From Geitlerinema sp. PCC 9228 (GTDB taxonomy: Bacteria; Cyanobacteriota; Cyanobacteriia; Cyanobacteriales; PCC-9228): a stretch of DNA of 58,404 bases. The DNA lies in contig NZ_LNDC01000132.1 in the NCBI RefSeq assembly GCF_001870905.1, positions 1 to 58,404 on the forward strand, given 5' to 3'. A program made the position numbers and the translations under genes. Position 1 is the stretch's first letter, and the number at the start of each line of letters is the position of its first letter. This document shows, piece after piece, positions 12,115 to 40,351 of the stretch. The notes under the pieces are model-generated. The model had not been told where the DNA came from, searched no databases, and saw only the letters and a list, made by a program, of their open reading frames with translations.

Positions 12115-12149
12115 CAGCCATGTCCTTTCTTCGTTTCTTGCTTCATATC

Positions 12150-14916: not shown

Positions 14917-14935
14917 GCTAATTAGTACCATTATC
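14917..14935. promoter_or_regulatory. Putative Fur box in the receptor/synthetase divergent region
   Basis: The reverse strand reads GATAATGGTACTAATTAGC, which matches the 19-base Fur consensus GATAATGATAATCATTATC at 15 of 19 positions by my count. It sits about 170 bp upstream of the receptor start and about 380 bp upstream of the FAAL-NRPS start, so it could give iron repression to the receptor operon and perhaps to both directions. Confidence 0.6.
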
Positions 14936-15311: not shown

Positions 15312-18300
15312 ATGAACGGTAAGTACAGCAACAATCCATGCCATTTTTCGCTATCGACACCGCGCCCCACGGGGAATCTCAGGGCAATGCCAGCTCGGAG
15401 TCTTACTACTTGGGTCGATCTAATGCAATATAGGGCACAAAAGCATCCCCACCGCCTGGCGTATATCTTTCTTGAGGATGGAGAAACCGAAACCGAACGG
15501 TGGACTTACGCAGAGCTAAACCAACGCGCCCAAGCGATCGCAGCCCATTTACAAAAGGTTGCTCCCATGGGAGCGAGGGCTTTGCTGTTGCACCCGCAAG
15601 GGATTGAATACATTGCTGCCTTTTTGGGATGTTTGTATGCCGGTATTATTGCTGTTGGCGCTTATCCGCCGCGACGCAACCAACATCTATCGCGATTAAA
15701 AGCGATCGCCAACAATTCCAATGCCAGTCTTGCCCTGACTGTAGCGACCCAACAAGCAGACTTGCAAGCCAGATGCGCACAAGAACCAGAATTTCCCTCC
15801 TTGCATTGGCTGGCTACCGATACCATCGCCACAACCCAAGCCAGTCAATGGCAGGCACCACTGACATTGAGCGAAGCCGAACCCCCCATCCGTAAAGATA
15901 CGCCGGCGTTTCTGCAATATACTTCGGGTTCTACAGGAACCCCGAAAGGTGTCATGGTCACCCACGAAAACCTACTGGATAACGAACGTATTATCCAACA
16001 AGCCTTCCAAAGCTCCGAAAGTACTCGTGTTGTGAGTTGGTTGCCTCTGTTCCACGATATGGGGTTGGTGGGAAGTGCCTTACAAAGCCTATACATAGGC
16101 GGACAGTGCATTTTGTTTTCGCCAGTCGCTTTTCTGCAAAAGCCGGTACGCTGGTTGCAAGCCATCCATCGCTACCGCGCTACTGCCAGTGGGGCACCCA
16201 ACTTTGCCTACGACTTGTGCGTGCGCCAAATTTCTCCCCAGCAAACGAGAGCGTTAGATCTGAGCTGTTGGGAACTAGCTTTCAACGGAGCCGAACCCAT
16301 CCGCGCCCAAACCTTACAAAAGTTTGCCGAGACCTTTGCCAAATGCCATTTTCGCAAGTCCGCTTTTTACTGTTGCTACGGCATGGCGGAAACAACGCTG
16401 CTGGTATCTGGAGCAGAGAAAGAAAGTTTACCCGTTGTTCGGCAGGTAGACCAGCGTTCCCTGCAAGCCAACTGCGTTCGACCTCCCGAAAGTTCCGAAA
16501 GTGCCAAAGAGGTGGTCAGCTCTGGAAAACCCCGCTTGGATGGCCAAGTAGCGATTGTCGATCCTGTTTCTCACACGCAATGTGCTGCCGATGGCGTTGG
16601 CGAAATTTGGGTAGCTGGCAGCAGCGTGGCGCAAGGATATTGGCAGCGACCCACCGAAACCGAAGAAACGTTCCGTGCCTTTCTAGCGGATACGGGAGAA
16701 GGACCTTTTCTGCGCACTGGAGACTTGGGATTTATACAAGACGGCGAACTCTTCGTAGTCGGTCGCTTGAAAGATACCATCGTCATTCGCGGTCTCAATT
16801 ACTATCCCCAAGATATTGAGCTGACCGTGGAACCAAGCCATCCGGCGCTGCGAGATGGTTGTGGGGCAGCTGTTTGTGTGGATATAGAAGGCGAATCCCA
16901 ACTGGTTATCGTACAGGAAGTGGAAAGGCGGTTTCTGCGGAACTTACCCGTAACGGAGATTGTACGGGCGATTTGTCGTGCGGTGGCTGCGGAACACGAG
17001 CTGCAAGTCTATGCGATCGCGTTACTCAAAACAGCCAGCCTGCCCAAAACCTCCAGCGGCAAAATCCAGCGCCGTGCTGCCCGGGAAGGATTTCTCGCGC
17101 AAAGCTTATCGGAAGTAGCGCGTTGGTATCGTTCCCAAGGGTTCGGCGATGCCAACTCGGAAGATACGCAAGCCGATTTGTACATACGCCGTCACATAAG
17201 CGAAGTTTTGGGCGTGCCACTGTCAGAATTGCAAAACGGACAGCAAGGGCTTTTGGAACTGGGGCTTGACTCGGTCAGTTCGGTAGAGTTGCGCAACAGC
17301 CTGCAAACCAGCTTTCAAGTAACACTACCCGCTACTCTAACCCTGGAATATCCCACCATTGACGATTTAATTGCTTACCTCAAACAGCAAATCGAAAAGG
17401 ACAGCCCATCGCAACGCTCTGCGTCGAGCGAGGTCGAAACGCCTGCCAATACCTCTATGACACAACTGCCAGAAGCCATTGCCAATCTTTCCAGTAGCGA
17501 AAAGCGATCGCTGCTCAAAAGATTGCTCCAAAAACAGATCGATGAAAACCGAACCTTTCCCCTTTCTTTTCCGCAACAGCGATTGTGGTTTCTCCACCAA
17601 CTGGAACCGGACAACCACGCTTATAATATTCCGGTTGCGGCTCGCTTGCATGGGAATCTCGATGCCGTTGCCTTAGAAAAAGCCCTCCAGGAAATCCTGC
17701 GAAGGCACGAAGTTCTGCGTACCCGATTTGACACCAACGAACGGGGAGAACCGGTACAAATTATCGAACCAGAAGCCTCCCTGTCGCTTCCCGTTATTGA
17801 CCTGCGCCAACAGCAAGCACCAGAAAGTCTTATCGAGGAATACACCACCAAAGAGGCGCAGCAACCTTTTGACTTGCAGCAAGCGCCCTTGGTGCGTGCC
17901 AAGTTGTTACGAGTGAGCGATACCGAACATGTGGTTTTGCTTACCTTACATCATATTGTCGCCGATGGCTGGTCCATGGGCATCTTGGTACGGGAAATGG
18001 CTGCCCTGTACGAATCATTTTCCCAGCAAACCACACCTTCTTTGCCAGAACTTCCCATTCAGTATGTCGATTACGCCGTTTGGCAGCGACAACACCTGCA
18101 AGGGGAAGCTTTGGAATCGTTGCTTGCCTACTGGCGGCAGCATCTCGGGGGCAATCCGCCGACCTTGCAGCTACCCAGCGATCGCAATCCCCAACAAGTA
18201 TCCTCAGAACAACAGCAAGGGGCGACCCTGCCCATGTCCGTAAGCGCGGACCTCTTGTCTCAATTGGAAAAAGTGGCTGCTAGTGAAGGTGTCACCTTAT

Positions 18301-20024: not shown

Positions 20025-20108
20025 CGAACGGATATTCTTTTTCCCAAGGGGTTTGGGAAATAACGACTTTTGGACAAAATTGATGATTCCTACAAGAGAG
20101 ACGTAACT

Positions 20109-23100
20109 ATGCTAGCCGAAGAAACCATTCAAGGATATGCCCTGTCGCCACAACAAAAACGTCTTTGGGATTGGCAACAGCAACAAAATACAAATTTCCG
20201 GGCCAAATGCCTGGTTTCCATCAGCGGAAATCTCGATCGCGATCGCCTTTATGCCAGTATCCAATCTCTTTGCGATCGCCACGAAATCCTCCGTAGCACA
20301 TTTCAGCGCCATGTCGGGATGCAATATCCCTTACAGGTGGTTTCCGAACACGCCACGTTTGACTGGGAAGTACGGGATTTACAGGAATTGAATCCCGAGC
20401 AGCAACAGGCTCAAATCGAGCAAATTGCCAACGCCCCAGCTAGCCCCAGGGAAAATCCCTTACAGGTATGGTTGTTGCCCACCGCACCAGAGAAATCTTT
20501 CCTTTTGCTCAGCTTACCAGCACTCTGTGCCGATCGCACAACCTTCAATATTTTGCTTGCCGAACTGAGCGATTTGTATGCTACTGGCGGCGAAAATATT
20601 CTGCCAGAATCAGAAATCGTTCAATACAGTCAAGTTTCTCAATGGCAATACGAAGTCCTTTCCGAGTTTAAAGCAGAAACAGGCGAGGAATTCTGGCAGC
20701 CCAGCAATCTGGAACGGTATAGTACACCGGAGATTCCCACTTGTACTGAGCCTGGCGCTGAGCTGAGTCGAAGCGTGCGTCAAAAAAGTCAGGAAAGCTG
20801 CGATCGCTACTCCCTTCACTTAGAACCGGAATTGCTAGAAAAGTTAGAACAGGCAGCCCAAAACTATGACAATTCCCTAGAGGATTGGCTGTTTGCTGCT
20901 TGGCAAACACTTTTGTGGCGCGTCGGCGGTTCCGGAGAGCGCTCCCTGCTTACTGTTTACGGCAGCGACGGCCGACCTTACGAGGACTTAGATAACACAG
21001 CGGGATTGCTAGCCAAATGGCTACCGGTTCCCATTACCCTCGATGGTAGCTGGCCGTTTTCCCAAGTGCTGGAATATGTTGGAGATGCCCAAGAACAGGT
21101 ACTGGGTTGGCAAGATTATATCGTTGCTGGTGCTACGCCTCTAGCCAGCCCCAATTCTTTGCCAGTTGGTTTTGAGTTTCTAGAACAGCCTTCTTTTTCT
21201 GCTTGCAACCTCACATTTGACATCCAACGCATCGAAACCACCAGCGATCGCTTCCAGCTTTGTCTATCCTGCCATCGCCATGCCGAGGGTCTGGATTTCG
21301 TTTTCCATTACAATGCGACTACCTACGCCGAAGCCACCATTGCCCGTCTGAGCCGTCATTGGCGAACCCTGCTAGAAAGCACGGTAGAAGCGCCAGATCG
21401 AAACATCGACCGACTATCCCTGCTCGACGATCGCGATCGCGAACAACTGCTTGTCGAATTCAACCAAACTCAACGAGACTTTCCCACAAATAAATGCTTG
21501 CACGAGCTTTTTGAAGAGCAAGTAGAACGCTGTCGCGATCGCATAGCCCTGCAATTCGAGCAAGAACAACTTACCTATGCAGAACTGAACCAACGCGCCA
21601 ACCAACTAGCCCACCACCTGCAGCAAGAATTTGGGGTGGGACCGGACACCCTGGTTGCCATTGGTTTGGAACGTTCCGCCCACAGCATTGTGGCCCTACT
21701 GGGCATTCTCAAAGCTGGCGGTGCCTACGTACCCGTGGACCCGGGCATGCCCCAACAACGCCGACAACGAATGCTGGCGGAAGCCAACCCAGTTGCGATC
21801 GTAACCCAGCAATCCTTGCAAAACCTATGGGAAGAACAAGAAAGTCCCATCATTTGTATCGACACCAAATACACCAATAGCACGGAGGAGTCTCTCCCCA
21901 ATCCCACCCACCGCACAACCAGCGATTCCCTTGCCTACGTTATCTTCACTTCGGGGTCCAGCGGTCAACCTAAAGGCGTAGCTGTGGAACACCGGCAAGT
22001 TCTCAATTATGTATATGGCATCAGCGATCGCCTGTCGCTGCCCGATAGGGCGACCTACGCCACGGTTTCCACCCTAGCTGCCGATTTGGGCAATACAGCT
22101 GTTTTCCCTGCCCTGTGTGGCGGTGGCTGCTTGCACGTTTTGTCGGGCGATCGCTTAGCCGATCCGCAAGCTTTTGCCGAGTATTGCACCTCCCACAGGA
22201 TTGACTGCCTGAAAATGACCCCTTCCCACCTGGCGGCGTTGGTTGCCGATGAAGATAGTGCCCAATTTCCCCGCTGCCGCCATCTCATTCTTGGTGGCGA
22301 ATCCCTAGGTTGGGAACTTATCCGAAAGATTCGACATCTAGCCCCCGATTGTCAAATTTGGAATCACTACGGTCCCACAGAAACCACCATTGGTGTTCTC
22401 ACTTATAAAGTAGAAGCAGAACTCACAACACCCACCGTGCCCTTGGGTCGTCCCCTGCCCAACGTGGAAACTTACTTGCTGGATAAATACATGCAGCCAG
22501 TACCTCTGGGGATTCCCGGAGAACTCTACATCGGCGGCGCTAGTGTTGCCCGGGGGTATCTCCACCAACCAGAACTAACCCAACAGCGATTTGCGAATCA
22601 TCCTTTCCGTTCTGAGGGAAGACTGTACAAAACCGGCGATATGGCTCGCTATCTGGAAGGCGGCAACCTAGAATTTTTGGGACGCAACGACCATCAAGTA
22701 AAAATTCGCGGTTTTCGGATCGAACTGGCAGAAGTGGAAGCCGTTGTGTCCCAACATCCCCAGGTGCGGGAAGTTGCCGTTACGACCCATCAAAGCGATG
22801 GTGCCTCTGGCACCGGTTCTTCGGACCATGGCGGCGAGACGGAACTGGCTGCCTACATTGCCCTCAAAGAGCAACAAGCAGATACCGTACGGCAGGTACG
22901 GAAATTTGTCCGGGAGCGATTGCCGGGGTACATGGTTCCCACCACCTTTTCTACCCTGAACGCCCTACCGCGAACGCCCAGCGGCAAAATTGACCGTCAA
23001 TCCCTACCCGAACCAACACCAGAAACGGAAGAAACCAGTTCGATGGCACCGCGTACCCAGGTGGAAACCCAATTGGTAGAGATTTGGCAAGAGATTTTGC

Positions 23101-23336
23101 AAACCGACAATATCGGCATTCAAGCGAACTTTTTCGATTTGGGGGGGCATTCCTTGCTTGCCACTCAAGTAATATCGCGGGTACGAAATGCTTTTGGGGT
23201 GGATGTTCCCCTGCGATCGCTGTTTGAATCGCCAACGATTGCCGATTTAGCGGTTTTGGTGGAACAAGCGCTTGCCGAACAAGTGGACGAAACAGAACTA
23301 TCGCAATGGCTGGCGGAAATTGAAGCGGATTCGTAG
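20109..23336 (+). CDS. NRPS module: C-like interface domain, A (Asp), PCP
   Basis: A 1075-residue module. The N-terminal condensation-like domain (about 1-440) lacks HHxxxDG; the equivalent stretch is LPALCADRTT near 135, so it should not form peptide bonds. It fits the interface domains that recruit aspartate beta-hydroxylases. The A domain (about 460-960) has FTSGSSGQPKG near 613 and RTPSGKIDR. Reading its specificity residues against GrsA gives D-L-T-K-I-G-H-I-G-K, one position from the Asp code DLTKVGHIGK. The PCP Ser is in DLGGHSLLATQ near 1013. The start chosen is the ATG at 20109, with AGAGAG upstream; a TTG at 20070 is in frame. It lies 84 bp after the FAAL-NRPS gene. Confidence 0.93.
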   Translation: MLAEETIQGYALSPQQKRLWDWQQQQNTNFRAKCLVSISGNLDRDRLYASIQSLCDRHEILRSTFQRHVGMQYPLQVVSEHATFDWEVRDLQELNPEQQQAQIEQIANAPASPRENPLQVWLLPTAPEKSFLLLSLPALCADRTTFNILLAELSDLYATGGENILPESEIVQYSQVSQWQYEVLSEFKAETGEEFWQPSNLERYSTPEIPTCTEPGAELSRSVRQKSQESCDRYSLHLEPELLEKLEQAAQNYDNSLEDWLFAAWQTLLWRVGGSGERSLLTVYGSDGRPYEDLDNTAGLLAKWLPVPITLDGSWPFSQVLEYVGDAQEQVLGWQDYIVAGATPLASPNSLPVGFEFLEQPSFSACNLTFDIQRIETTSDRFQLCLSCHRHAEGLDFVFHYNATTYAEATIARLSRHWRTLLESTVEAPDRNIDRLSLLDDRDREQLLVEFNQTQRDFPTNKCLHELFEEQVERCRDRIALQFEQEQLTYAELNQRANQLAHHLQQEFGVGPDTLVAIGLERSAHSIVALLGILKAGGAYVPVDPGMPQQRRQRMLAEANPVAIVTQQSLQNLWEEQESPIICIDTKYTNSTEESLPNPTHRTTSDSLAYVIFTSGSSGQPKGVAVEHRQVLNYVYGISDRLSLPDRATYATVSTLAADLGNTAVFPALCGGGCLHVLSGDRLADPQAFAEYCTSHRIDCLKMTPSHLAALVADEDSAQFPRCRHLILGGESLGWELIRKIRHLAPDCQIWNHYGPTETTIGVLTYKVEAELTTPTVPLGRPLPNVETYLLDKYMQPVPLGIPGELYIGGASVARGYLHQPELTQQRFANHPFRSEGRLYKTGDMARYLEGGNLEFLGRNDHQVKIRGFRIELAEVEAVVSQHPQVREVAVTTHQSDGASGTGSSDHGGETELAAYIALKEQQADTVRQVRKFVRERLPGYMVPTTFSTLNALPRTPSGKIDRQSLPEPTPETEETSSMAPRTQVETQLVEIWQEILQTDNIGIQANFFDLGGHSLLATQVISRVRNAFGVDVPLRSLFESPTIADLAVLVEQALAEQVDETELSQWLAEIEADS
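20740..20775 (-). repeat. CTTCGAC...CTCAGTACAAG-type repeat, in frame in NRPS
   Basis: On the reverse strand this reads as two adjacent half units, GCTTCGACTCAGCTCAGC and CAGGCTCAGTACAAG. It is translated as CTEPGAELSRS within the interface domain of the Asp module. It belongs to a family of 12 copies seen between 20.7 and 32.2 kb. Confidence 0.65.
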
Positions 23337-23338
23337 TG

Positions 23339-23438
23339 ATACCAAATCCTGCTTAGACTGAAGAACCCCCTGTAGTCCCCCTTAGTAAGGGGGACGGTTC
23401 AGGTTACGTTTGTGATTTAGCAATATCAGATTTGGTAT
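23339..23438. mobile_element. MITE-like element between NRPS genes
   Basis: A 100-bp element bounded by the perfect 10-bp inverted repeat ATACCAAATC / GATTTGGTAT (23339-23348 and 23429-23438). It contains the perfect palindrome GTCCCCCTTA-G-TAAGGGGGAC at 23375-23395. A 38-base internal segment (23360-23397) is identical to an in-frame segment of the PKS gene at 31065-31102. It starts 3 bp after the stop of the Asp module and could act as a transcript hairpin. Confidence 0.65.
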
Positions 23439-23497
23439 GAGATTCTCCGAAACGTTCCTATTTTGCCAACCCTCACATCAGCAACCTCGATGATATT

Positions 23498-26400
23498 ATG
23501 AGCGACCTTGCCAAACGAATTGCAGCTTTATCCCCCGAACAGCGGGAAAAACTGCTGCAAAAACTTTCCCAATCCCAATCAAAATCGTCCGATACAACTC
23601 AATCGCCTAGCGTTGAGGGCAGTCAAGATGCACCAGTTTCGCAAACGGGAGAAACGGTATTTCCCCTATCTGCTGCCCAACAGCGCCTGTGGTTTTTGGA
23701 ACAACTGGTGGGAGAAAGTCCTTTCTACAACGTTCCTGGGGCTGTGGAAATTCAAGGACAACTAGACGCAAATATCTTGCAGCGCTGTTTTAGCGAAACG
23801 ATCCGCCGCCACCAGGTATTGCGTACCCGATTTGCCAAGCAAAATGGCGAACCGGTCCAGATTGTCGATCCCCCTTTTCAACTGGAAATGCCAGTGGTGG
23901 ATTTGCAGCAGACGGATTCTGCTTGTAAAGAGGAAAAAGCCCAACAATTGGCGCGAGAAGAAGCGGAAAAGCCTTTCGATCTGACAAAATCGCCTCTTTT
24001 GCGGACCAAGCTACTGCATTTGGAACGCGATCGCTACCTGTTGGTGTTTATCTCCCATCATATTATCTCCGATGCGTGGTCCCGTACGGTGATGCTGCGA
24101 GAGCTGACGACTTTGTACCAAGCCTTTTCCCAGCAGCAGCCTTTCTCCTGCGGAGACGCTTCGCGAACGCCGTTGCCGGAACTTTCCGTGCAATACGTGG
24201 ATTTTGCTGTACGGCAAAACCAGTGGCTGCAAGGGGAAACCATGCAAAAACAACTGGATTACTGGCAGCAAAAATTGCATCCTTTACCACCAGTTTTGGA
24301 GTTGCCCTTCGCCCATCCCCGTCCCCAACAGCAAAGCTATCGCGGGGCACAGCATCAGTTAGTCGTAGAACCGGAATTGATGGCCTCTCTGCGATCGCTT
24401 GCCCGGCAGCACAATGCCACGCCCTACGTGGTGTTGCTAGCAGCATTCCAAACGCTGCTGTACCGCTATACTGGGGAAACAGATATTGCCGTCGGGTCAC
24501 CCATTGCCAACCGCAACCATGCTGCTTACGAGCAGTTAATCGGCTTTTTTGCCAACACGTTGGTGCTGCGTTCCGATTTATCCGGCGATCCGACATTTTC
24601 AGAACTGCTCGACCGGGTACGCGAGACCGCCCTCGATGCTTATTCCAACCAGGATTTGCCCTTCGAGAAACTGGTAGAAGTTCTACAACCGCAGCGAGAT
24701 ACCAGCCATTCTCCCTTATTTCAAGTTCTATTTGCCTTTCACGATATGCCGGTTTTGCCGGAAATTCCAGGATTGAGCTTCAAACTGTGGGATTTGGATA
24801 CGGCCACAGCCAAATTCGACCTCAGCTTGCTTTTGCGTGTGGACGAACAAAACCGGGGCATTATTACTTTAGAATACAATACCGATTTATTCGACTCAGA
24901 AACCATCGAACGCTTGGCCACCCACTGGCAAACGCTCTTAACCGATATTGCCAAGCAACCGTCGCAACCCATTTCGCAACTGTCTTTGCTGCCACCAGCC
25001 GAGCGACAGCAAGTTTTGCAAACCTTCCAAGCCACCGAAGTTGACTATCCAGAAACGCCCGTTCACCAGTTGTTTGTCGAACAGGTTGCCCAAACCCCCA
25101 CGCGCGAAGCGGTATCTTTGGGAGAACAAACCCTCACCTATCAAACCCTCTACCAAAAAGCCAACCAACTAGCCCGCAAACTGCGATCGCTAGGCGTAGG
25201 ACCGGAGACCCAAGTCGGCATTTGTCTGAGCGTTTCTCCAGAAATTTATGCCCAAAGGTCGGAAGCTTGGTTGCCAGTGGCTGTTTTGGGCGTCCTTTTG
25301 GCTGGCGGTGCCTACGTTCCCCTAGATCCCAACCTGCCTCAAGCACGTTTGGCTTATATGAGCGAGAACGCACAGGTCAAAATTGTCCTCACCCACGAGC
25401 ATTTGCAAGCCAGGCTGCCCGATGGTTGTACGACTTTATGTTTGGATACCGACTCGGATGAGATTGCCAAGTATAGCGATGCTCCTTTAGAACCGCTGGC
25501 AACCCCTGGTGTTGACCGAACTGGTGCTGAGCCGCGTCGAAGCAGCCGAAACGTCGATAACCTGGCATACATCATTTATACATCCGGTTCCACCGGACAA
25601 CCCAAGGGCGTGGCTATGACCCACCGTCCCCTCAACAACTTGATTCGCTTCCAGAGGCAAATCTCTCGCCTCCAGCAGCAAGGGGCACGTACCTTGCAGT
25701 TTGCAGCGTTCAGTTTTGACGTATTTTTCCAAGAGCTTTTTGCCACTTGGAGTGCCGGCGGAACGTTGGTTCTGATGCCAGATGAAGCCCGTCGCGACCC
25801 CAATCGCTGGTTGGAGCTAATGGTGCAAGAACGAGTCGAACGGGTCTTTTTGCCATTCGTCGCCCTATCGCAACTGGCTCAAGCCGCCCAACGTCGCGGA
25901 AAAATTCCCCAATCCTTACAAGAGATCGTTACAGCCGGGGAACAACTACAAATTACCCCTGCGATCGCGCGTTTTTTGGAAGCCTTGCCCAATTGCCGAT
26001 TGCAAAATCAATACGGTCCTTCCGAAACCCACGTGGTCGCCACCTACACATTGTCAGGAAAACCCAATTCCTGGCCCAAGCTACCGCCTATCGGTCGTCC
26101 CATTGCCAACGCCAAACTGTACGTTCTCGACGAGAACTTGCAACCGGTTCCCATTGGCGTTCCCGGAGAACTGTGCGTCGGCGGTGTTTCCCTGGCGCGG
26201 GGATATTTCCGCAACCAACAGCAAACGGACGAACGTTTCATTACCAATCCCTTTGTAGCCGAACAGCACAAGCCACGTTTGTACAGAACCGGCGATCGCG
26301 CTCGCTTTCTCAGCGACGGCAACATCGAGTTTTTGGGACGCAACGACCGTCAAGTCAAACTCCGGGGATTTCGCTTGGAACTAGCAGAAGTAGAAGCGGC

Positions 26401-27115
26401 TTTGACCCAACATCCTCAAATTCGCGAAGCAGCGGTAGGGGTGCTTCGCGAAGCACCCGTACGGGATGATGGTACGGGCAAGCGTTTGGTCGCCTATATC
26501 GTTTGCTTCGACAAAGCTCAGCACAAGCCGCATAGTTCAAATTCAGACAATAACTGGCAGATGCTTCGGCAGGACTCAGCACAAGTGCTTCAACCAAGCT
26601 CAGTACAAGCTTTTTTGCGATCGCTACTGCCCGAGTATGCCATTCCTTCCCAATTTGTGGAATTAGAAGCTTTACCCACCACCCCCAGTGGCAAAATCGA
26701 CCGGCGTTCCTTACCCGAACCCCAACCCCAACACACCAACACCTCTGCTTCGACAAAGCTCAGCACAAGCAGCAGCTACGTTGCTCCTAGAAACGACCTG
26801 GAATCGGACATTGCCCAGATGTGGCAGGAAATTTTGCAATGCGATCGCGTAGGCATCAACGACAACTTTTTCGACCTCGGCGGTCATTCCTTGCTCATCG
26901 TGCAATTGGGCGATCGCTTGTCCGAGTATCTACAACAGGAAATTCCGCTCGTCAAGCTATTTCAGTATCCCACCATCGCCAGCTTTGTGGAATATCTAAA
27001 TTCTGCAAACAACAGCCCAACCAACCAGCAATCCCATCGCTCTACCAGACGCCAAAGAGCCCAAAACCGAACTGCCAACCTGCAGCAGCAACGAAAACGG
27101 CGACAGCGGCGGTGA
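23498..27115 (+). CDS. NRPS module C-A-PCP, substrate uncertain
   Basis: A 1205-residue module. The condensation domain (about 50-470) has SHHIISDAWS near 186: the catalytic His and Asp are present, and the usual Gly after Asp is Ala. The A domain (about 500-1060) has YTSGSTGQPKG near 693 and TTPSGKIDR. My reading of the specificity residues is D-V-Q-F-V-A-Q-V-V-K. This shares DVQ and VVK with proline codes but differs enough that the substrate stays open. The PCP Ser is in DLGGHSLLIVQ near 1128. The protein ends in an Arg-rich tail (TRRQRAQNRT, QQQRKRRQRR) that may dock to the PKS. Several dispersed repeats are translated in its A domain and A-PCP linker, and one palindrome gives VLREAP. It lies 161 bp after the Asp module. 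Confidence 0.9.
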   Translation: MSDLAKRIAALSPEQREKLLQKLSQSQSKSSDTTQSPSVEGSQDAPVSQTGETVFPLSAAQQRLWFLEQLVGESPFYNVPGAVEIQGQLDANILQRCFSETIRRHQVLRTRFAKQNGEPVQIVDPPFQLEMPVVDLQQTDSACKEEKAQQLAREEAEKPFDLTKSPLLRTKLLHLERDRYLLVFISHHIISDAWSRTVMLRELTTLYQAFSQQQPFSCGDASRTPLPELSVQYVDFAVRQNQWLQGETMQKQLDYWQQKLHPLPPVLELPFAHPRPQQQSYRGAQHQLVVEPELMASLRSLARQHNATPYVVLLAAFQTLLYRYTGETDIAVGSPIANRNHAAYEQLIGFFANTLVLRSDLSGDPTFSELLDRVRETALDAYSNQDLPFEKLVEVLQPQRDTSHSPLFQVLFAFHDMPVLPEIPGLSFKLWDLDTATAKFDLSLLLRVDEQNRGIITLEYNTDLFDSETIERLATHWQTLLTDIAKQPSQPISQLSLLPPAERQQVLQTFQATEVDYPETPVHQLFVEQVAQTPTREAVSLGEQTLTYQTLYQKANQLARKLRSLGVGPETQVGICLSVSPEIYAQRSEAWLPVAVLGVLLAGGAYVPLDPNLPQARLAYMSENAQVKIVLTHEHLQARLPDGCTTLCLDTDSDEIAKYSDAPLEPLATPGVDRTGAEPRRSSRNVDNLAYIIYTSGSTGQPKGVAMTHRPLNNLIRFQRQISRLQQQGARTLQFAAFSFDVFFQELFATWSAGGTLVLMPDEARRDPNRWLELMVQERVERVFLPFVALSQLAQAAQRRGKIPQSLQEIVTAGEQLQITPAIARFLEALPNCRLQNQYGPSETHVVATYTLSGKPNSWPKLPPIGRPIANAKLYVLDENLQPVPIGVPGELCVGGVSLARGYFRNQQQTDERFITNPFVAEQHKPRLYRTGDRARFLSDGNIEFLGRNDRQVKLRGFRLELAEVEAALTQHPQIREAAVGVLREAPVRDDGTGKRLVAYIVCFDKAQHKPHSSNSDNNWQMLRQDSAQVLQPSSVQAFLRSLLPEYAIPSQFVELEALPTTPSGKIDRRSLPEPQPQHTNTSASTKLSTSSSYVAPRNDLESDIAQMWQEILQCDRVGINDNFFDLGGHSLLIVQLGDRLSEYLQQEIPLVKLFQYPTIASFVEYLNSANNSPTNQQSHRSTRRQRAQNRTANLQQQRKRRQRR
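25521..25543 (-). repeat. GCTTCGAC-type repeat, in frame in NRPS A domain
   Basis: A reverse-orientation copy of the dispersed repeat (reverse strand GCTTCGACGCGGCTCAGCA). It is translated as TGAEPRRSS in a loop just before the ATP-binding motif YTSGSTGQPKG. Confidence 0.6.
26435..26462. repeat. GTAGGGG palindrome, in frame in NRPS A domain
   Basis: The palindromic core GGGTGCTTCGCGAAGCACCC is translated as VGVLREAP in the C-terminal subdomain of the A domain. It is related to the palindromes at 27168, 29318, 30697 and 32406. Confidence 0.6.
26505..26609 (+). repeat. Three GCTTCGAC-type repeats, in frame in NRPS A domain
   Basis: Copies lie at 26505-26527, 26563-26585 and 26587-26609. They read variants of GCTTCGACAAAGCTCAGC plus ACAAG. 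Because they sit in different reading frames they give CFDKAQHKP, LRQDSAQVL and LQPSSVQA. Together they expand the C-terminal part of the A domain before the SGKIDR motif. Confidence 0.7.
26747..26769 (+). repeat. GCTTCGAC-type repeat, in frame in the A-PCP linker
   Basis: A copy of GCTTCGACAAAGCTCAGC plus ACAAG, translated as ASTKLSTS, in the linker between the A domain and the carrier protein. Confidence 0.7.
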
Positions 27116-27123
27116 TTTTAATT

Positions 27124-27155
27124 GGGAGGGAGAGGGGGAGGAGTGGGAGAGGGGG
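27124..27155 (+). other. G-quadruplex-capable G-rich run upstream of the PKS
   Basis: Five runs of three or more G separated by 1 to 6 bases (GGGAGGGAGAGGGGGAGG, then GAGTGGGAGAGGGGG) lie between the NRPS stop and the PKS start, about 110 bp before the PKS ATG. Whether it folds in DNA or mRNA is untested. Confidence 0.45.
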
Positions 27156-27167
27156 CACCCTTCGGCA

Positions 27168-27194
27168 GTAGGGGGTTTCGCGAAACGCCCCTAC
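27168..27194. repeat. GTAGGGG palindrome between NRPS and PKS
   Basis: A 27-base palindromic repeat with core GGGTTTCGCGAAACGCCC, of the same family as the palindromes inside the coding regions. It lies in the 148-bp gap between the third NRPS gene and the PKS gene. Confidence 0.55.
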
Positions 27195-27263
27195 TCAGGG
27201 CAAGTCGGCGCATCGGCGCATGGGGCTTCAAAGAAAACAATCGATCGTACTTGGTAAAAAATT

Positions 27264-30200
27264 ATGGAAAACACAAACAACGATATCGCGATCGTAGGCA
27301 TGACGGGCAGATTTCCTGGTGCCCGTTCGGTAGAGGAATTCTGGCAAAATTTGCGCGATGGTGTGGAATCCATCGAGTCTTTGAGCGAAGAACAACTGCA
27401 AGCGGCTGGCATCGCGCGCGAAACCTACAACCAGCCGAACTACGTTAAAGCAGCTCCCATTCTCAAAAACGATATTGCCGAATTTGATGCCTCGTTTTTT
27501 GGGTTGAGTCCTCGGGAAGCGGAACTGCTCGACCCCCAACAGCGATTCTTTTTAGAAGGCGCTTGGGAAGCGATGGAAAATGCCGGGTACAATCCACAAG
27601 ACTGCGGGTTGCGAGCGGGCATTTATGCTGGTGTAGGGCGGAATACGTACCTGTTGTTCAACGTCTATCCCAACCGCGATACCATCGATACGGCGGGGGC
27701 GTTTGCTACCCTCATTAGCAACGATAAAGATTTCCTTGCCACCCGCGTTGCCTATTTTCTTAATTTCAAAGGGGCAAGTATCACCGTACAAACCGCTTGT
27801 TCTACGTCTTTGGTAGCAACGCATTTGGCTTGCCAGAGCCTGTTGAGCGGCGAAAACGATTTGGTGTTGGCGGGGGGTGTTTCCCTGAAGGTGCCACATA
27901 CGGCTGGGTACGTTTACCAAGAAGGTGGGATTTATTCACCGGATGGGCACTGTCGCAGTTTCGATGCCCATGCCCAAGGAACGGTGGGTGGCAGCGGTAT
28001 GGGCATTGTGGTGTTAAAACGTTTGGAAGATGCGATCGCGGATGGAGATACCATTCGCGGGGTTATTAAAGGGTCTGCCACCAACAACGATGGTGCTGTA
28101 AAAGTGGGATACACGGCTCCCAGCGTGACGGGGCAAGCGGATGTCATTGAAGAGGCGCTGTGCGTGGCGGATATCCATCCGGAAACCATTCAATACGTGG
28201 AAACCCACGGTACGGCAACACCGTTAGGCGACCCCATTGAAATCCAAGCTCTCACTTCGGCATTTCGTTCCAGTACCCAGAAAACAGGTTGGTGTGCCAT
28301 TGGTTCGGTAAAAAGCAATGTGGGACATTTGGATACGGCAGCTGGTGTGGCAGGTCTAATCAAAACTGTGTTGGCATTGGAAAACCAACAAATTCCTCCT
28401 TCGTTGCATTGGGAACAACCCAATCCCCAAATTGATTTTGACAGTACCCCTTTCTTTGTCAATACGAAGCTACAAGATTGGCAGCGGTTCGACTCCAATG
28501 GCAGCCAGCAGGGGGAAACGCCGCGACGTGCAGGGGTTAGTTCCTTTGGCATCGGCGGTACCAACGCCCACGTCATTGTGGAAGAAGCACCCAAAACTTC
28601 CCCTGCTGCTACTTCCAGACCCCAACAACTATTGCTGCTTTCCACCAAAACCAAAACGGCTCTGGAAACGGCGACGACGAATTTAAAAACCTATCTGGAA
28701 CAACAGAAACCAGACAACTTAGCTGACGTTGCCTATACACTACAAATCGGACGCCAGCATTTTTCCTATCGCCGTGCCATCGTCTGCGAAAACAATACGG
28801 CTGCCGCTGTAGAAGTTCTATCGTCGGGAACATTCGTAACTACAGGATACTGCGAAACCAGCGATCGCCCGGTATGTTTTATGTTTCCCGGTCAAGGTTC
28901 CCAATATGCCAACATGGGAAGGCAGTTGTACGAACGCGAACCCGTCTATCGCCAGTCGATCGATCGCAGTGCCGAGTTGTTCGCTCCCTATCTCGATCTG
29001 GATATTCGCGATATTTTGTATGCCGATGCTTCTACAGAGGACCATCAAGAACAACTTACCCATACCGCGATCGCGCAATGTGTTTTGTTTGCTGTCGAGT
29101 ATGCTTTGGCACAACTGTGGCTTTCGATGGGTATTCAACCGAAAGCAGCCATTGGACATAGCATTGGCGAATACGTGGCGGCTTGTCTGGCAGGGGTGTT
29201 TGACCTAGAAGATGCTCATGCGTTAGTTGCCCAACGGGGCAAGCTGATGGAACAAGCACCCACCGGCAGCATGTTGAGCGTAGGGCTACCGGCAGCAGAG
29301 CTAGAACCCATGCTTGGTGGGGCAGGCACGGGGGCGCTTCGCGAAGCGCCCCTACAGTATACGGTGGCAGCCATCAATGCTCCCTCTTTGTGTGTTGTTT
29401 CTGGAGAAGAAAATGCGATCGCGCGTTTGCAATCGACCCTAGAGGCACGCGGAGTGGTTTGTCGCCCCCTCCACGTTCGTCATGCCTTTCATTCTCCTAG
29501 CATGAACGCCGCTGCCGAACAATTCGCTGCTATTGTAGAACGGACTTCCCTCCATCCCCCGCATTTACCTTTTATTTCCAATGTCACCGGCACTTGGATT
29601 ACCGAAGCGCAAGCCACCGACCCCCACTATTGGGCGCAACACATCCGCCAACCCGTACGTTTTGCCGATGGTGCTGCCGAACTGATGCGCTGCTTCGACC
29701 AAGCTCAGCACAAGCAAGCAATTCTGTTGGAAGTGGGACCGGGGAGAACCCTGCAAACGCTAGTCCGACTTGCAGCGAGCGAAACCGAACCGCAGCAGCT
29801 TCAGGATGATGCCGAACCTGTGGTTCTTACTTCCATGCGCCATCCCCAACAACCAACCAATGATACCCACCACCTGCTTGCAACCCTAGGGCAACTGTGG
29901 CGTTATGGGGTTACCATTGATTGGCAAGGCTTTTACCAGCAAGAAAAGCGTCGCCGCATTCCGCTACCCACCTATCCTTTTGAACGGCAGCGTTACTGGA
30001 TCGATCCGCCTAGCAAATCTTCCCAAGACCGGCAGCCAGAATCTACAACCAGCGAGGAGTTGCAACAGAGAAATCCTTTTGACGAATGGTTCTATACACC
30101 CACGTGGAAGCGTTTGCCTCGACGTAGTACAGCACAAACTGTATTGGCTGCCTCTCCGACAACTGCAACCAGCAATGCCGGAACCCACTGGCTGGTATTT

Positions 30201-32357
30201 ACAGATAGACAAGATGTGGGTAATTCGCTACTGCAACAAGTCCAGCAACAGCTTGCAGATGAAGGAGAATTGGACTATATCTGCATAGCCGTTGTCATGG
30301 GCGAAGAATTTGCTCAAATCGATGCCAACACCTATGCCATAAATCCGCGCCAGCGGCAAGATTACCGCATGCTGTGGCAAGAGCTGGTTCGACGCGATGC
30401 ACTGCCCCAACAAATCGTCCATTGCTGGAATCTTGACTATAGCGATAGTTTGGATTTGGGATTCTACAGCTTGCTCTATCTGGCACAAGCAATAGGCGAG
30501 AGCGATGTTACCGAACCGATAACTTTCACCACAGTGAGCGATCGCGCTTACGAAGTGGTCGGAATGGAATCTATTCGTCCCGAACAAGCCACATTGCAGG
30601 GTATTTGTCAAGTCATTTCCCAAGAATATTCCAATATTTCCTGTCGCTTGGTAGATGTGCTCCTGCCAAGGATTCAACATAGCTCAGCAGATTCGCAGGC
30701 GCAACGCGAAGCGCCCCTACTTGCCCAACAAATTCTTGGTGAAATCCAAGTATCGGCAAACGAAGGCTTCGACGAAGCTCAGTACAAGTCGCCTGTGGCA
30801 TATCGCGGCGGCTATCGCTGGATTCGTTCGTTTGATGCAATTTCTTTACCAGCAACCAGTGAAGGGATGCCCCATCGCCTGAAGCAAGGCGGCGTTTACT
30901 TGATTACTGGCGGTCTGGGTGGCATTGGTTTGTCGGTGGCTCGATATCTTGCCGATACGGTACAAGCCAAATTAATTTTGGTAACCCGTTCCGGTTTGCC
31001 AGCGCTAGAGAAAGGGTCCGATGCTTCGGCAGGGGTGAGCACAAGTTTCCTGACATCGCAGCCAGAAGAACCCCCTGTAGTCCCCCTTAGTAAGGGGGAC
31101 GGCGGCAGCTGGGGGGAAGAAGACAAAACCAGCCAAAAAATTAGGGCAGTTCAAGATTTGAAACAGCGCGGTGCCGAAGTTTTGGTGCTTGCTGCCGACG
31201 CAAGCGATCGCGATGGCATGGAATCTGCGATCGCAACTGGAGAATCTCGTTTTGGTCCCATCAATGGGGTGGTTCATGCTGCTGGGGTTGCTGGCGGCGG
31301 TATTATTCAATTGAAAGACCCAACACAAGCCGATGCGGTTCTATCTGCGAAAGTTCGCGGTTCGGTGGTGTTGGATGAATTATTGCGCGATCGGGAGTTG
31401 GATTTTATGGTGCTTTGTTCTTCCCTAAGTTCCGTTATCGGTGGTGTGGGTCAAGTGGACTATTGCGCTGCCAATGCCTTTTTAGATGCTTTTGCCCGCG
31501 ATCGCACAGCCAGAACCAACCAATACACTGTTTCGATTAATTGGGATGTGTGGCAAGAGGTTGGCATGGCGGTAGGTACGGAAGTGCCAGAATTGCTGCA
31601 AAAACAGCGTCAAGAAAGCATCGATTCGGGGCTATCGCCGGCGGAAGGAATTGCAGCTTTCCGTCACATTCTCGATAGCGATTTGCCTCACGTTTTGGTT
31701 TCTACCAAAAATTTAGATGATGTTATCGAAAACCGCCGTTCGGATATTGGTTTGGAAGATAAACTGGCGCAGTTGGAATCGCAAACAGAAGAACCAAGTA
31801 CCCCTGCAACCACCTATCCCCGTCCTAATTTAGAAACCACCTACGTAGCCCCGCGCAATAGCATCGAACGCACCATTGCTGCCACCTGGCAAGATTTTCT
31901 GGGTATTGACGATGTGGGCATACATGATGACTTTTTTGAGTTGGGCGGTCATTCCCTGTTGGCGGCGCGTATTATTTCTCAACTGCGCGATCGCTTTCAA
32001 CAAGAAATTCCCATCGATACCTTGTTCAAAACGCCAACGATTGCCGGGATAGCTGCTGTTATTCAGGACAACACTGCTGCTTCGACAAAGGTTCGTACAA
32101 AATCACCAGAACCAGATTCTACTCCGGAATCAATTTCTACCGATGCTTCGGCAGGGCTCAGCACAAGTGCTTCAACAAAGCTCAGCACAAGCGACGCTCA
32201 AGTCACCATTTTACCCACCCTCCGTACCGAAGCCCATAAGAAGCTTACCAAACTGGACGAACTTTCCGAACGCGATGTGGATGCTCTCTTACAGCGTTGC
32301 CTATCTCAAGAAAACTTATCTCAGGAGGAGATAGATATGTATCTGCAAAACAACTGA
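27264..32357 (+). CDS. Type I PKS module KS-AT-KR-ACP
   Basis: A 1697-residue polyketide synthase module that should add one malonyl-derived unit and reduce the ketone. KS (about 5-430) has Cys in QTACSTSLVA near 176, His in VETHGTAT and KSNVGHLD. AT (about 540-860) has PGQGSQYANMG, Ser in GHSIGE near 631, and HAFH, the signature favouring malonyl-CoA. KR (about 1000-1440) has TGGLGGIG near 1214 and the Ser/Tyr region CSSLSSVIGGVGQVDYCAAN. The ACP Ser is in ELGGHSLLAA near 1561. No TE or reductase domain follows, only about 100 residues ending in a charged helical stretch that may dock to another protein. Dispersed repeats are translated in the AT, the KR and the tail, lengthening loops. It starts 148 bp after the third NRPS gene. 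Confidence 0.94.
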   Translation: MENTNNDIAIVGMTGRFPGARSVEEFWQNLRDGVESIESLSEEQLQAAGIARETYNQPNYVKAAPILKNDIAEFDASFFGLSPREAELLDPQQRFFLEGAWEAMENAGYNPQDCGLRAGIYAGVGRNTYLLFNVYPNRDTIDTAGAFATLISNDKDFLATRVAYFLNFKGASITVQTACSTSLVATHLACQSLLSGENDLVLAGGVSLKVPHTAGYVYQEGGIYSPDGHCRSFDAHAQGTVGGSGMGIVVLKRLEDAIADGDTIRGVIKGSATNNDGAVKVGYTAPSVTGQADVIEEALCVADIHPETIQYVETHGTATPLGDPIEIQALTSAFRSSTQKTGWCAIGSVKSNVGHLDTAAGVAGLIKTVLALENQQIPPSLHWEQPNPQIDFDSTPFFVNTKLQDWQRFDSNGSQQGETPRRAGVSSFGIGGTNAHVIVEEAPKTSPAATSRPQQLLLLSTKTKTALETATTNLKTYLEQQKPDNLADVAYTLQIGRQHFSYRRAIVCENNTAAAVEVLSSGTFVTTGYCETSDRPVCFMFPGQGSQYANMGRQLYEREPVYRQSIDRSAELFAPYLDLDIRDILYADASTEDHQEQLTHTAIAQCVLFAVEYALAQLWLSMGIQPKAAIGHSIGEYVAACLAGVFDLEDAHALVAQRGKLMEQAPTGSMLSVGLPAAELEPMLGGAGTGALREAPLQYTVAAINAPSLCVVSGEENAIARLQSTLEARGVVCRPLHVRHAFHSPSMNAAAEQFAAIVERTSLHPPHLPFISNVTGTWITEAQATDPHYWAQHIRQPVRFADGAAELMRCFDQAQHKQAILLEVGPGRTLQTLVRLAASETEPQQLQDDAEPVVLTSMRHPQQPTNDTHHLLATLGQLWRYGVTIDWQGFYQQEKRRRIPLPTYPFERQRYWIDPPSKSSQDRQPESTTSEELQQRNPFDEWFYTPTWKRLPRRSTAQTVLAASPTTATSNAGTHWLVFTDRQDVGNSLLQQVQQQLADEGELDYICIAVVMGEEFAQIDANTYAINPRQRQDYRMLWQELVRRDALPQQIVHCWNLDYSDSLDLGFYSLLYLAQAIGESDVTEPITFTTVSDRAYEVVGMESIRPEQATLQGICQVISQEYSNISCRLVDVLLPRIQHSSADSQAQREAPLLAQQILGEIQVSANEGFDEAQYKSPVAYRGGYRWIRSFDAISLPATSEGMPHRLKQGGVYLITGGLGGIGLSVARYLADTVQAKLILVTRSGLPALEKGSDASAGVSTSFLTSQPEEPPVVPLSKGDGGSWGEEDKTSQKIRAVQDLKQRGAEVLVLAADASDRDGMESAIATGESRFGPINGVVHAAGVAGGGIIQLKDPTQADAVLSAKVRGSVVLDELLRDRELDFMVLCSSLSSVIGGVGQVDYCAANAFLDAFARDRTARTNQYTVSINWDVWQEVGMAVGTEVPELLQKQRQESIDSGLSPAEGIAAFRHILDSDLPHVLVSTKNLDDVIENRRSDIGLEDKLAQLESQTEEPSTPATTYPRPNLETTYVAPRNSIERTIAATWQDFLGIDDVGIHDDFFELGGHSLLAARIISQLRDRFQQEIPIDTLFKTPTIAGIAAVIQDNTAASTKVRTKSPEPDSTPESISTDASAGLSTSASTKLSTSDAQVTILPTLRTEAHKKLTKLDELSERDVDALLQRCLSQENLSQEEIDMYLQNN
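29318..29355. repeat. GTAGGGG palindrome, in frame in the PKS AT domain
   Basis: The palindromic core GGGGCGCTTCGCGAAGCGCC is translated as GGAGTGALREAPLQ. It forms an extra loop in the acyltransferase between the ELEPML helix and the VAAINAPSLCVVSG strand, where homologues are shorter. Confidence 0.65.
29692..29714 (+). repeat. GCTTCGAC-type repeat, in frame in PKS AT
   Basis: A copy of GCTTCGACCAAGCTCAGC plus ACAAG, translated as CFDQAQHKQ near the end of the AT domain. Confidence 0.65.
30697..30720. repeat. Partial GTAGGGG palindrome, in frame in PKS
   Basis: A half copy (GCGCAACGCGAAGCGCCCC plus TAC), translated as QREAPL in the KR structural subdomain. Confidence 0.5.
30766..30788 (+). 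repeat. GCTTCGAC-type repeat, in frame in PKS KR
   Basis: A copy of GCTTCGACGAAGCTCAGT plus ACAAG, translated as GFDEAQYKS just before the KR nucleotide-binding subdomain. Confidence 0.65.
31023..31102 (+). repeat. Two unlike repeats side by side, in frame in the PKS KR domain
   Basis: A GCTTCGGC-type copy (31023-31045, giving DASAGVSTS) is followed by a 38-base segment (31065-31102) identical to the core of the MITE-like element at 23339-23438. The second gives PEEPPVVPLSKGDG. They fill the variable loop between the second beta strand and the next helix of the KR Rossmann fold. Confidence 0.7.
32079..32191 (+). repeat. Three GCTTCGAC-type repeats, in frame in the PKS tail
   Basis: Copies lie at 32079-32101, 32145-32167 and 32169-32191. 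The last two are almost back to back. They give AASTKVRT, DASAGLST and SASTKLSTS in the linker after the ACP. Confidence 0.7.
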
Positions 32358-32660: not shown

Positions 32661-33329
32661 TCAGGACTCGATCCACTTACGTAATAAGTTTGAATGGGTC
32701 TTACACAAGATATCAAATTCTTTTGTGTTGCCGTATTTTTTATAAAGGGCCTGTCGTACGGTTTCTAATTCAAAGAGAATTTGTCGTTCTTCTGCATCGC
32801 GAATCCAACTTTGTATCCACGTTACGCCAGCAAAACGGATTCCCGAGGTTACTGTACCTACGCGGTGAAATCTAGAAGAAGGATAAACAACCATAGAGCC
32901 AGCATTTAACTTAACATACTTTTCTCCCCACTCCGTATCGATAATCAACTCACCTCCCTCGTAGCTAGATGGATCGCTTAAAAATAAGGTTATTGATAAA
33001 TCCGAACGGGTTTTATTCTCTTTTCCGATTAAAGCATTGTCGGTATGCATGCCGTAAGACATACCAGTTTCGTAGCGGCTAAATAGAATAGGATGAATTT
33101 TTCGAGGTCGAACGGCACTTTGAAATAAATTGTTCCGTTGCAATGCTTGCAATACAATATCTCGAATCTCTGTGACAGAAGTTTCTTTTTCGGAAAGCTG
33201 CTGGTTATTTTTAACCTGTTTGGCATGCCATCCGGCGGTTAATTTTCCATCTATAAACTTTGCTGCTTCTAAACGAGCAACAATTGTTTTCACTTCATCC
33301 GGTGTCAAAACATCGTCAATGACAAGCAT
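32661..33329 (-). CDS. PiuC/PKHD-type 2OG-Fe(II) oxygenase
   Basis: A 222-residue Fe(II)/2-oxoglutarate oxygenase of the PiuC (PKHD) type, close to the usual length of about 225. The jelly-roll core shows the iron ligands HTD in YGMHTDNAL near 99-101 and His in YPSSRFHRVGTVTSG near 160. The oxoglutarate Arg is the R of SGIRFAGVTW. The N-terminus (VIDDVLTPDEVKTIVARLE) and the GWHAKQVKNNQQL stretch are family features. PiuC genes usually accompany TonB-dependent iron receptors, but their substrate is not settled. Here it lies between the siderophore PKS and thioesterase genes on the opposite strand. It may modify the siderophore or a related ligand, which is inference. Confidence 0.88.
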   Translation of the reverse strand: MLVIDDVLTPDEVKTIVARLEAAKFIDGKLTAGWHAKQVKNNQQLSEKETSVTEIRDIVLQALQRNNLFQSAVRPRKIHPILFSRYETGMSYGMHTDNALIGKENKTRSDLSITLFLSDPSSYEGGELIIDTEWGEKYVKLNAGSMVVYPSSRFHRVGTVTSGIRFAGVTWIQSWIRDAEERQILFELETVRQALYKKYGNTKEFDILCKTHSNLLRKWIES

Positions 33330-33520: not shown

Positions 33521-35647
<2,127 letters not shown>

Positions 35648-39940: not shown

Positions 39941-40351
39941 TTATTCTTCCGATTCCGATTCTGTCGCGATCGCGAGTTGCAAGCCATCCACGCGCCGCAA
40001 ACGATCCATCACCCGCACCACCCGACCGTGAGCCACTTGTTCGTCAGCATTCACAATGGCCAACTTTTTTGTACCAGATTCAATTTCCTTACGCACGGTG
40101 GGCAAAAGTTGCTCCATCTCCACAGACGTTTTGTTTACAGAAAGGGTACCATCGGCAGCAATGGTAATGTAAATTTCGCTGGAACTTTGCGACTCGCCAG
40201 TAGAAGCCTCCGGTAAGTTCACCGGCAATCCTTCCGACCGAGTTAAGAACAAGGTAGAAATCACGAAAAACGCCAAAATCGAGAAAATAATATCAATAGC
40301 TGGCACAATATTAATTCCAGCAGGGCGATCGGGTTCCTCATTGAGACGCAT
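39941..40351 (-). CDS. exbD: ExbD-type biopolymer transport protein
   Basis: A 136-residue ExbD protein. It has a short cytoplasmic N-terminus (MRLNEEPDRPAGINIVPAID), one membrane helix (IDIIFSILAFFVISTLFLT) containing the essential Asp at its start, and a periplasmic domain ending in GRVVRVMDRLRRVDG. With ExbB it uses the proton gradient to drive TonB. Its start lies 14 bp inside the exbB gene, so the two are translationally coupled. The C-terminus is acidic (ESESEE). Confidence 0.93.
   Translation of the reverse strand: MRLNEEPDRPAGINIVPAIDIIFSILAFFVISTLFLTRSEGLPVNLPEASTGESQSSSEIYITIAADGTLSVNKTSVEMEQLLPTVRKEIESGTKKLAIVNADEQVAHGRVVRVMDRLRRVDGLQLAIATESESEE

Follow-up and report, generated by a model that had tools for sequence, protein, structure and literature searches.

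The window analyzed here is a 58,404-nt stretch (positions 1-58,404, forward strand) of contig NZ_LNDC01000132.1 of Geitlerinema sp. PCC 9228 (GCF_001870905.1). It carries a four-gene nonribosomal peptide synthetase (NRPS)/polyketide synthase (PKS) assembly line that probably represents a compact and conserved form of cyanochelin-like siderophore locus, with an acyl-(L-threo-beta-hydroxyaspartate)-Pro-beta-hydroxy acid as its likely product. Domains are abbreviated as follows: fatty acyl-AMP ligase (FAAL), acyl and peptidyl carrier proteins (ACP and PCP), condensation (C), interface (I), adenylation (A), ketosynthase (KS), acyltransferase (AT), ketoreductase (KR), epimerization (E), thioesterase (TE), and terminal reductase (TD); beta-OH-Asp stands for beta-hydroxyaspartate.

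Domain organization of the assembly line

Calling of open reading frames (ORFs) delimited the assembly line to four + strand ORFs at 15312-32357, hereafter genes A to D, with the following domains as read from Pfam matches and motifs (and, for genes B and C, substrate codes):

15312..20024, + strand: gene A (1570 aa), FAAL (about residues 32-600), ACP (624-690), C (747-1189, HHIVADG), and TauD (1261-1549; HNE...H...R)
20070..23336, + strand: gene B (1088 aa from TTG), C-like domain of the interface type (no HHxxxDG), A (predicted Asp by its code, DLTKIGHIGK), and PCP
23498..27115, + strand: gene C (1205 aa), C (HHIISDA), A (code DVQFVAQVVK, predicted Pro), and PCP
27264..32357, + strand: gene D (1697 aa), KS (TACSTS), AT (GHSIGE, HAFH), KR (Y/N motif), and ACP, followed by a C-terminal docking-like tail

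An earlier note on this DNA had proposed the order FAAL-ACP-C-TauD, C-like-A-PCP, C-A-PCP, and KS-AT-KR-ACP on one strand, and both Pfam and the motifs bear it out; the domain calls in A to D score far above the Pfam cut-offs, which rules out that this order arose by reading-frame chance. Gene B likely starts at the in-frame ATG at 20109 rather than at the TTG at 20070. The adenylation domain of protein A is FAAL-like, its solved relatives being 7r7e ("polyketide synthase," 655 bits) and 3kxw ("saframycin Mx1 synthetase B"), then the fatty-acid--AMP ligases FadD23 and FadD32. NCBIfam FAAL models match protein A well, yet under their curated cut-offs. FAAL and ACP precede the C domain in gene A, as expected of the FAAL-started lipopeptide line that the note had envisaged.

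The "C-like" domain of protein B, so named in the note, has PALCADR in place of HHxxxDG and reaches 172 bits with the Condensation profile versus 419 and 386 for the other two C domains; its counterparts in relatives likewise have no HHxxxDG. In an alignment from which domains of <380 residues (7 of 222 C and I domains) were excluded, HH occupied the catalytic site in none of the 57 I-type domains versus 147 of the 158 C domains. We take the defining features of the siderophore interface domain of Reitz et al. 2019 to be a condensation fold beside a hydroxylase and a missing catalytic HHxxxDG. The condensation-fold domain of gene B adjoins the hydroxylase and has no such motif, and may serve to recruit the hydroxylase. 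The TauD domain of protein A has HNE, the distal His, and Arg, and the H(N/S)E, H, and R residues are kept in all 56 aligned TauD domains; the domain is predicted to be a beta-hydroxylase of the Fe(II)/2-oxoglutarate type. The Asp module lies next to a TauD hydroxylase, as the note had it. The modified Ser is kept in all four carrier domains. The AT motif HAFH points to the malonyl type, and the domains of protein D agree with the one reduced malonyl unit of the original proposal. By Pfam, the line has no E or TD domain, and in gene D the ACP is followed by neither a TE nor a TD.

Substrate codes

Ten-letter A-domain codes were read from an alignment of 145 A-domain pieces. The cyanochelin B cluster (AP017310), read at the same alignment columns, served as a control and gave, in order, DAWTIAAVCK, DILQLGLIWK, DLTKIGHVGK, DVWHFSLIDK, DLTKIGHVGK, and DILQLGLIWK. 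These codes correspond in order to the published residues of cyanochelin B, namely Phe, Gly, OH-Asp, Ser, OH-Asp, and ethanolamine from Gly (PMC12628792). Because its code, DLTKIGHIGK, resembles the DLTKIGHVGK of both hydroxyaspartate modules of the control, the A domain of protein B is predicted to load Asp, and the single Asp code previously read for this line is upheld by the control.

The code of protein C is DVQFVAQVVK, which is tabulated as Pro (Streptomyces formicae), as is DVQFVSQVMK, in PMC9113097. By this code, the A domain of protein C would load Pro. Related genomes described below carry DVQFIAQVVK (G159 and G386) or matching motif pieces (G487) in the same module, and among the codes compared none besides those of the window and these three genomes starts with DVQ. 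The ninth letter of the Pro-type codes fell in a gap of one alignment and was taken from another, or, for G487, from the raw motif; the Asp code of G159 is split across two broken frames and was read in pieces. When six code strings were sought in the literature searched, only DVQFVAQVVK was found, in PMC9113097, and the other five were not.

The line within its genome

The draft genome (4.80 Mb, 223 contigs) is rated 100% complete. A Pfam profile search at E <= 0.001 placed the 3 Condensation matches and the 1 TauD match of the genome within this line. Of 5 PP-binding matches, 4 belong to the line and the fifth lies in an 89-aa frame next to a KS frame of 432 aa. This KS frame (contig C46) and a 401-aa one (contig C42) hold the two KS matches outside the line, and both are too short to be part of a type I PKS; the former is probably FabF, and the latter, judged by eye from its translation, appears to be free-standing. 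Continuation of the line elsewhere in the genome was rejected in view of the lack of further C or TauD matches, the one short PCP frame, and the short KS frames. The line is thus, as far as profiles tell, the sole NRPS/PKS system found in this genome, with a single hydroxyaspartate module, and it looks complete with one beta-OH-Asp since the search gave no other Condensation or TauD domain. With one Asp module and one TauD in the genome, the expectation that the product differs from two-hydroxyaspartate siderophores is supported.

A candidate for release or editing lies 3' of the line and was recognized by Pfam:

36172..36969, + strand: type II TE, with a 53% homologue directly 3' of gene D in G487

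PF00975 has four matches in the genome, and only this one scores above the Pfam cut-off.

A conserved core in three other genomes

A TauD search of 386 sampled genomes of the phylum gave matches in 28 at E <= 1e-30, the window's own included. Flanks were compared for 21 of the other 27 (G024, G074, G105, G172, G306, and G336 were left out, as was the second G167 locus), together with the cyanochelin B plasmid, L035, L036, L039, G386, G388, and G487; L034 stands for G159, and L037 and L038 were left aside. The minimal core C-TauD, I-A(Asp)-PCP, C-A(Pro)-PCP, and KS-AT-KR-ACP occurs in the window, G386 (contig C177), and G487 (C162), and G159 has the same core up to the KR, where its contig ends. 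G386 belongs to the family of G159 but to another genus and G487 to another family, so that the core is found in genomes of three families. TauD matches number 1 in the window genome, 1 in G159, 1 that covers the TauD domain in G487, and 2 in G386, the second of these in a longer line of the two-module kind.

Of the 26 loci resolved besides these four lines, 24 have at least two interface-A modules; the other two are G278, with one interface module, and a cut 7.7-kb contig from an Acidobacteria metagenome-assembled genome (MAG). G278 was rejected as a core member: it has one TauD and one interface module, but its line is much longer (its end was not reached) and its TauD falls outside the clade. 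A protein C search of 388 genomes of the order, scoring two candidates per genome, gave 2711, 1358, 1268, and 1190 bits for the four core genomes versus at most 1023 for the others. In a 57-domain TauD tree, a branch with 98/99 support separates the four core TauDs from the rest; they lie within a group holding 22 of the 23 other NRPS-fused TauD enzymes.

FAAL and ACP are fused to C-TauD in the window, and G159 has the same order, FAAL, ACP, C-TauD, over broken frames. FAAL-ACP next to C-TauD was seen in these two only; it is the core, not the start of the line, that comparison of the four loci marks as conserved. A TE gene lies directly 3' of gene D in G487 and farther off on the same contig in G386, where binding-protein and MFS (major facilitator superfamily) genes stand between genes C and D. 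The docking-like tail of protein D is present, by eye, in G386 and G487 as well, and no NRPS/PKS gene was detected after gene D in the window, G386, or G487 (the G159 contig ends earlier).

The docking-like tail without a partner, repeat-derived insertions in genes C and D (see below), and the broken G159 frames would fit the shortening and decay of a once longer cyanochelin-like cluster, now with no useful product. We regard such decay as highly improbable: all four genes of the window are open and have the catalytic motifs that were checked, the core is common to genomes of three families with TauDs of one clade, and the core genes of G487 are open and end with a TE.

The contigs of G159 and of MAG QS_4_48_99 (PXPT01000187) gave the same 69% match. 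This MAG is probably from salt crusts. Halothece-like genomes are reported from Atacama salt crusts (PMC5532433), but the name of this MAG is absent from the main text of that paper.

Two side observations came from the same comparison. Six of the 24 loci with at least two interface-A modules (G030, G078, G308, G334, G376, and G382) have one such module with the code DSALIAEVWK beside a free-standing TauD gene. This code would denote His, and the six loci suggest cyanobacterial lines that mix beta-OH-Asp and beta-OH-His. The 7.7-kb Acidobacteria contig (L039; MAG52, JAIVJM010000091) encodes a TauD 52% identical to that of the window, with I-A(Asp)-PCP-E; under its Acidobacteria label this points to transfer or mis-binning.

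Relation to cyanochelins

The closest described system considered was the cyanochelin B cluster on plasmid 2 of Leptolyngbya sp. NIES-3755 (AP017310; PMC12628792). Both lines start with a FAAL, both fuse TauD to a C domain and encode next, as a protein of its own, I-A(Asp)-PCP with the Asp code DLTKIGH.GK, and both are accompanied by receptor, binding-protein, MFS, Suc_Fer, and FecCD genes. The best long matches are about 37-49% identical, and the best cyanochelin B matches of gene B are the Asp modules BAU16061 (43%) and BAU16012 (42%). Cyanochelin B differs by its two beta-OH-Asp residues, its thiazoline, Phe, Gly, and Ser, a second TauD that is free-standing, and reductive release (PMC12628792), whereas for the window line we predict a single beta-OH-Asp followed by Pro and, at the C-terminal end, a reduced malonyl unit, with no TD.

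The locus shares with cyanochelin-like lines the C-TauD unit followed by interface(C-like)-A(Asp)-PCP and the siderophore transport genes alongside. Cyanochelins are described with two beta-OH-Asp residues (PMC12628792); here we found one Asp-coded I-A module and one TauD in the genome. Reductive TD release, a feature of cyanochelin B that is outside the printed definition, is likewise missing, with no TD after the ACP of protein D. By its domains and codes, this is not a cyanochelin line in the strict sense, and the label "cyanochelin type" given in the earlier note lacks support as it was phrased.

A true cyanochelin line could still be imagined, making two beta-OH-Asp residues by using the Asp module twice or through a second Asp module in an unassembled part. 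The match of the transport genes and of the C-TauD/I-A-PCP unit to the cyanochelin B cluster, the at least two interface modules in 24 of 26 other resolved loci, the docking-like tail on protein D, and the assembly in 223 contigs speak for it. We hold it to be very unlikely, given that a genome with a completeness rating of 100% has one TauD and three C domains, and given a one-Asp core that recurs in three other genomes, a line with no E or TD domain found, and siderophore-locus genes that flank genes A to D on both sides.

The preferred assignment to a compact one-hydroxyaspartate line has a broader setting. Cyanobacterial FAAL-NRPS-PKS beta-OH-Asp siderophores are a known class for which antiSMASH has hydroxylase rules, and its CyanoBH_Asp1/2 groups comprise TauD enzymes beside siderophore transporters in cyanobacterial NRPS clusters, as in the window (PMC12971057). 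No description of a cyanobacterial hydroxyaspartate/proline lipopeptide siderophore was found among the titles and abstract openings searched; the 2021 cyanochelin paper or the 2019 hydroxylase paper may mention one. Within that literature, the new part is the compact, proline-containing line with one hydroxyaspartate, which we did not find in print.

Siderophore transport context and a putative regulatory site

Pfam placed siderophore uptake and export genes on both sides of the line (an NCBIfam model identified the dioxygenase, and a consensus scan the putative regulatory site):

8625..10019, - strand: Suc_Fer-like protein, a candidate ferric-siderophore reductase by inferred function; cyanochelin B counterpart, 356 bits
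9623..10978, - strand: MFS exporter candidate, with a counterpart in the cyanochelin B cassette
10975..12156, - strand: siderophore periplasmic binding protein
12150..14747, - strand: AMIN-containing TonB-dependent receptor; G159 has a close homologue beside its line
14917..14935, - strand: Fur-box-like site, intergenic between the receptor and gene A; 4 mismatches to the 19-bp consensus
32661..33329, - strand: YbiX-type (PKHD) Fe2+-dependent dioxygenase (NF003974, 297.6 bits versus a cut-off of 143)
36980..37801, - strand: ferric-siderophore ABC ATPase
37814..38908 and 38909..39922, - strand: two FecCD permeases
39941..40351, - strand: ExbD
40338..41015, - strand: ExbB
41288..42382, + strand: TonB

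Outward to the left of the line, the order is TonB receptor, binding protein, MFS, and Suc_Fer-like protein, the last of which, as listed from its TTG, overlaps the MFS gene. To the right it is YbiX-type dioxygenase, an RTX/collagen protein, TE, ABC ATPase, two FecCD permeases, ExbD, ExbB, and TonB. The receptor, binding-protein, and Suc_Fer genes also stand beside the line in G159, on whose contig no MFS gene was detected; the Suc_Fer-like protein recurs in the siderophore loci of the window, G159, G386, and cyanochelin B. The oxygenase at 32661, presumably PiuC, was considered as a tailoring hydroxylase and set aside as improbable, as it matches YbiX-type models. The Fur-box-like site was scored against a 19-bp consensus. 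At <=4 mismatches, the window has 1 such site versus 0.08 expected under a first-order random model; when the intergenic sequence was put through 500 simple shuffles, 8 of them contained a site with <=5 mismatches on the scanned strand. The Fur-like site near the receptor start in G159 is weak (6 mismatches).

A beta-OH-Asp-containing lipopeptide need not be a siderophore: it might be a surfactant or an antibiotic, as stated for turnercyclamycin, the non-metallophore beta-OH-Asp lipopeptide named in PMC12971057, and a single bidentate chelating residue is all that is predicted here. Such another role is unlikely for the present line, which is flanked by the TonB receptor, binding protein, FecCD, ExbB/ExbD/TonB, the YbiX-type dioxygenase, and the Fur-box-like site, and which has the receptor, binding-protein, and Suc_Fer genes beside it in G159 too. 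The TonB/FecCD locus around the genes thus supports the siderophore line postulated at the outset.

Other features of the window lie outside this assignment. The RTX/collagen protein (33521-35602, - strand; 693 aa) has RTX calcium-binding and collagen triple-helix repeats, is encoded by strongly repetitive DNA, and sits in the middle of the siderophore locus; in L034, a CHRD/RTX protein directly precedes the FAAL. A 167-aa stand-alone orange-carotenoid-protein N-terminal domain is encoded at 54806-55309 (+ strand), and a 643-aa ORF at 1297-3228 (- strand) has no Pfam match.

Proposed product and mechanism

In the proposed sequence of events, the FAAL would adenylate a fatty acid and load it onto the ACP of protein A, while the A domain of protein B would load L-Asp onto its own PCP. 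The TauD of protein A, docked via the catalytically dead interface domain of protein B, would hydroxylate the tethered Asp at the beta carbon, and the C domain of protein A would join the acyl chain to beta-OH-Asp. Protein C would add proline, and protein D would add one malonyl unit and reduce the ketone, giving acyl-(beta-OH-Asp)-Pro-CH(OH)-CH2-CO-ACP, from which the type II TE at 36172 may release the free acid. Export would proceed through the MFS pump, and the ferric complex would return via the TonB receptor, the binding protein, and the FecCD transporter. The condensation of a fatty acid with beta-OH-Asp, a second residue, and a reduced malonyl unit, as first suggested, agrees with the sequence; the second residue, previously left unassigned, is Pro by its code.

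Fusion of the hydroxylase to the NRPS and the lack of an E domain make L-threo the probable configuration of the hydroxyaspartate. PMC12628792 quotes Reitz et al. for the rule that NRPS-fused hydroxylases give S at the beta carbon. The terminal PKS-made beta-hydroxy carboxylate is a candidate for two iron donors besides those of beta-OH-Asp and could complete a four-donor ligand. A bolder proposal, to which we lend only tentative credence, is a separate siderophore class that combines one beta-OH-Asp with a beta-hydroxy carboxylate at the C-terminal end, which a polyketide module would build from proline. Such a four-donor amphiphile would form 2:1 or 3:2 iron complexes, and the class would be kept in a small number of lineages, one probably from salt crusts.

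Several points weigh against the assignment as a compact one-hydroxyaspartate siderophore line. Chemically, one beta-OH-Asp offers two donors, and no second recognized chelator gene was seen; the docking-like tail of protein D could look as if a further protein once followed in an ancestor. The Pro code rests on a table of binding-pocket assignments, not on an assay of protein C, and most other Pro rows of that table (PMC9113097) have H where DVQFVAQVVK has Q. DLTKIGHIGK and two classical Pro strings were not found in the literature searched. With the threshold at <=5 mismatches, Fur-box-like sites in the window show no excess (1 seen versus 0.83 expected). The core is also rare: in the family of G159, 2 of 9 genomes have it and 3 of 9 have a TauD match, and the window's own family offers no second genome for comparison. 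No FAAL fusion was seen in G386, where the upstream ORF is methyltransferase-like (by eye) and ends in an ACP, or in G487, whose contig ends ~0.5 kb upstream of C-TauD with no open frame there. More generally, G159, G386, and G487 are represented by short or cut contigs, and G159 has several broken frames.

Repeats within the locus

Genes C and D contain a 23-bp repeat, GCTTCGACAAAGCTCAGCACAAG, at 26505-32191. All 7 window copies with <=3 mismatches lie in these two genes (mean in shuffles, 0.00), and at <=2 mismatches they hold 5 of the 8 copies in the 4.8-Mb genome. Copies and near copies fall in all three reading phases, and several overlap insertions absent from aligned homologues; none was found in the stretches of six relatives that were checked. 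A palindrome type, GGGGCGCTTCGCGAAGCGCCCC, is spread through the genome (36 places at <=2 mismatches), with looser window copies at 26429, 27161, 29322, 30687, and 32400, three of them inside genes C and D; the copy at 29322 is an insertion not seen in aligned homologues. Finally, a 43-bp element occurs twice, 95% alike, at 23355-23397 (between genes B and C) and 31060-31102 (in the KR region of gene D, with the frame intact).

Implications

Cyanochelins are a family of light-sensitive cyanobacterial iron scavengers, of which the window product would be a smaller version. If the proposed assignment is true, the four genes with one hydroxyaspartate would be the smallest line of their class among the loci resolved here. 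They would offer a convenient system for how a fused hydroxylase finds Asp via a dead condensation-like domain, and a place to ask whether a PKS-made beta-hydroxy acid serves as an iron ligand. For the family at large, they would warn that cyanochelin-like gene signatures do not always imply two hydroxyaspartates.

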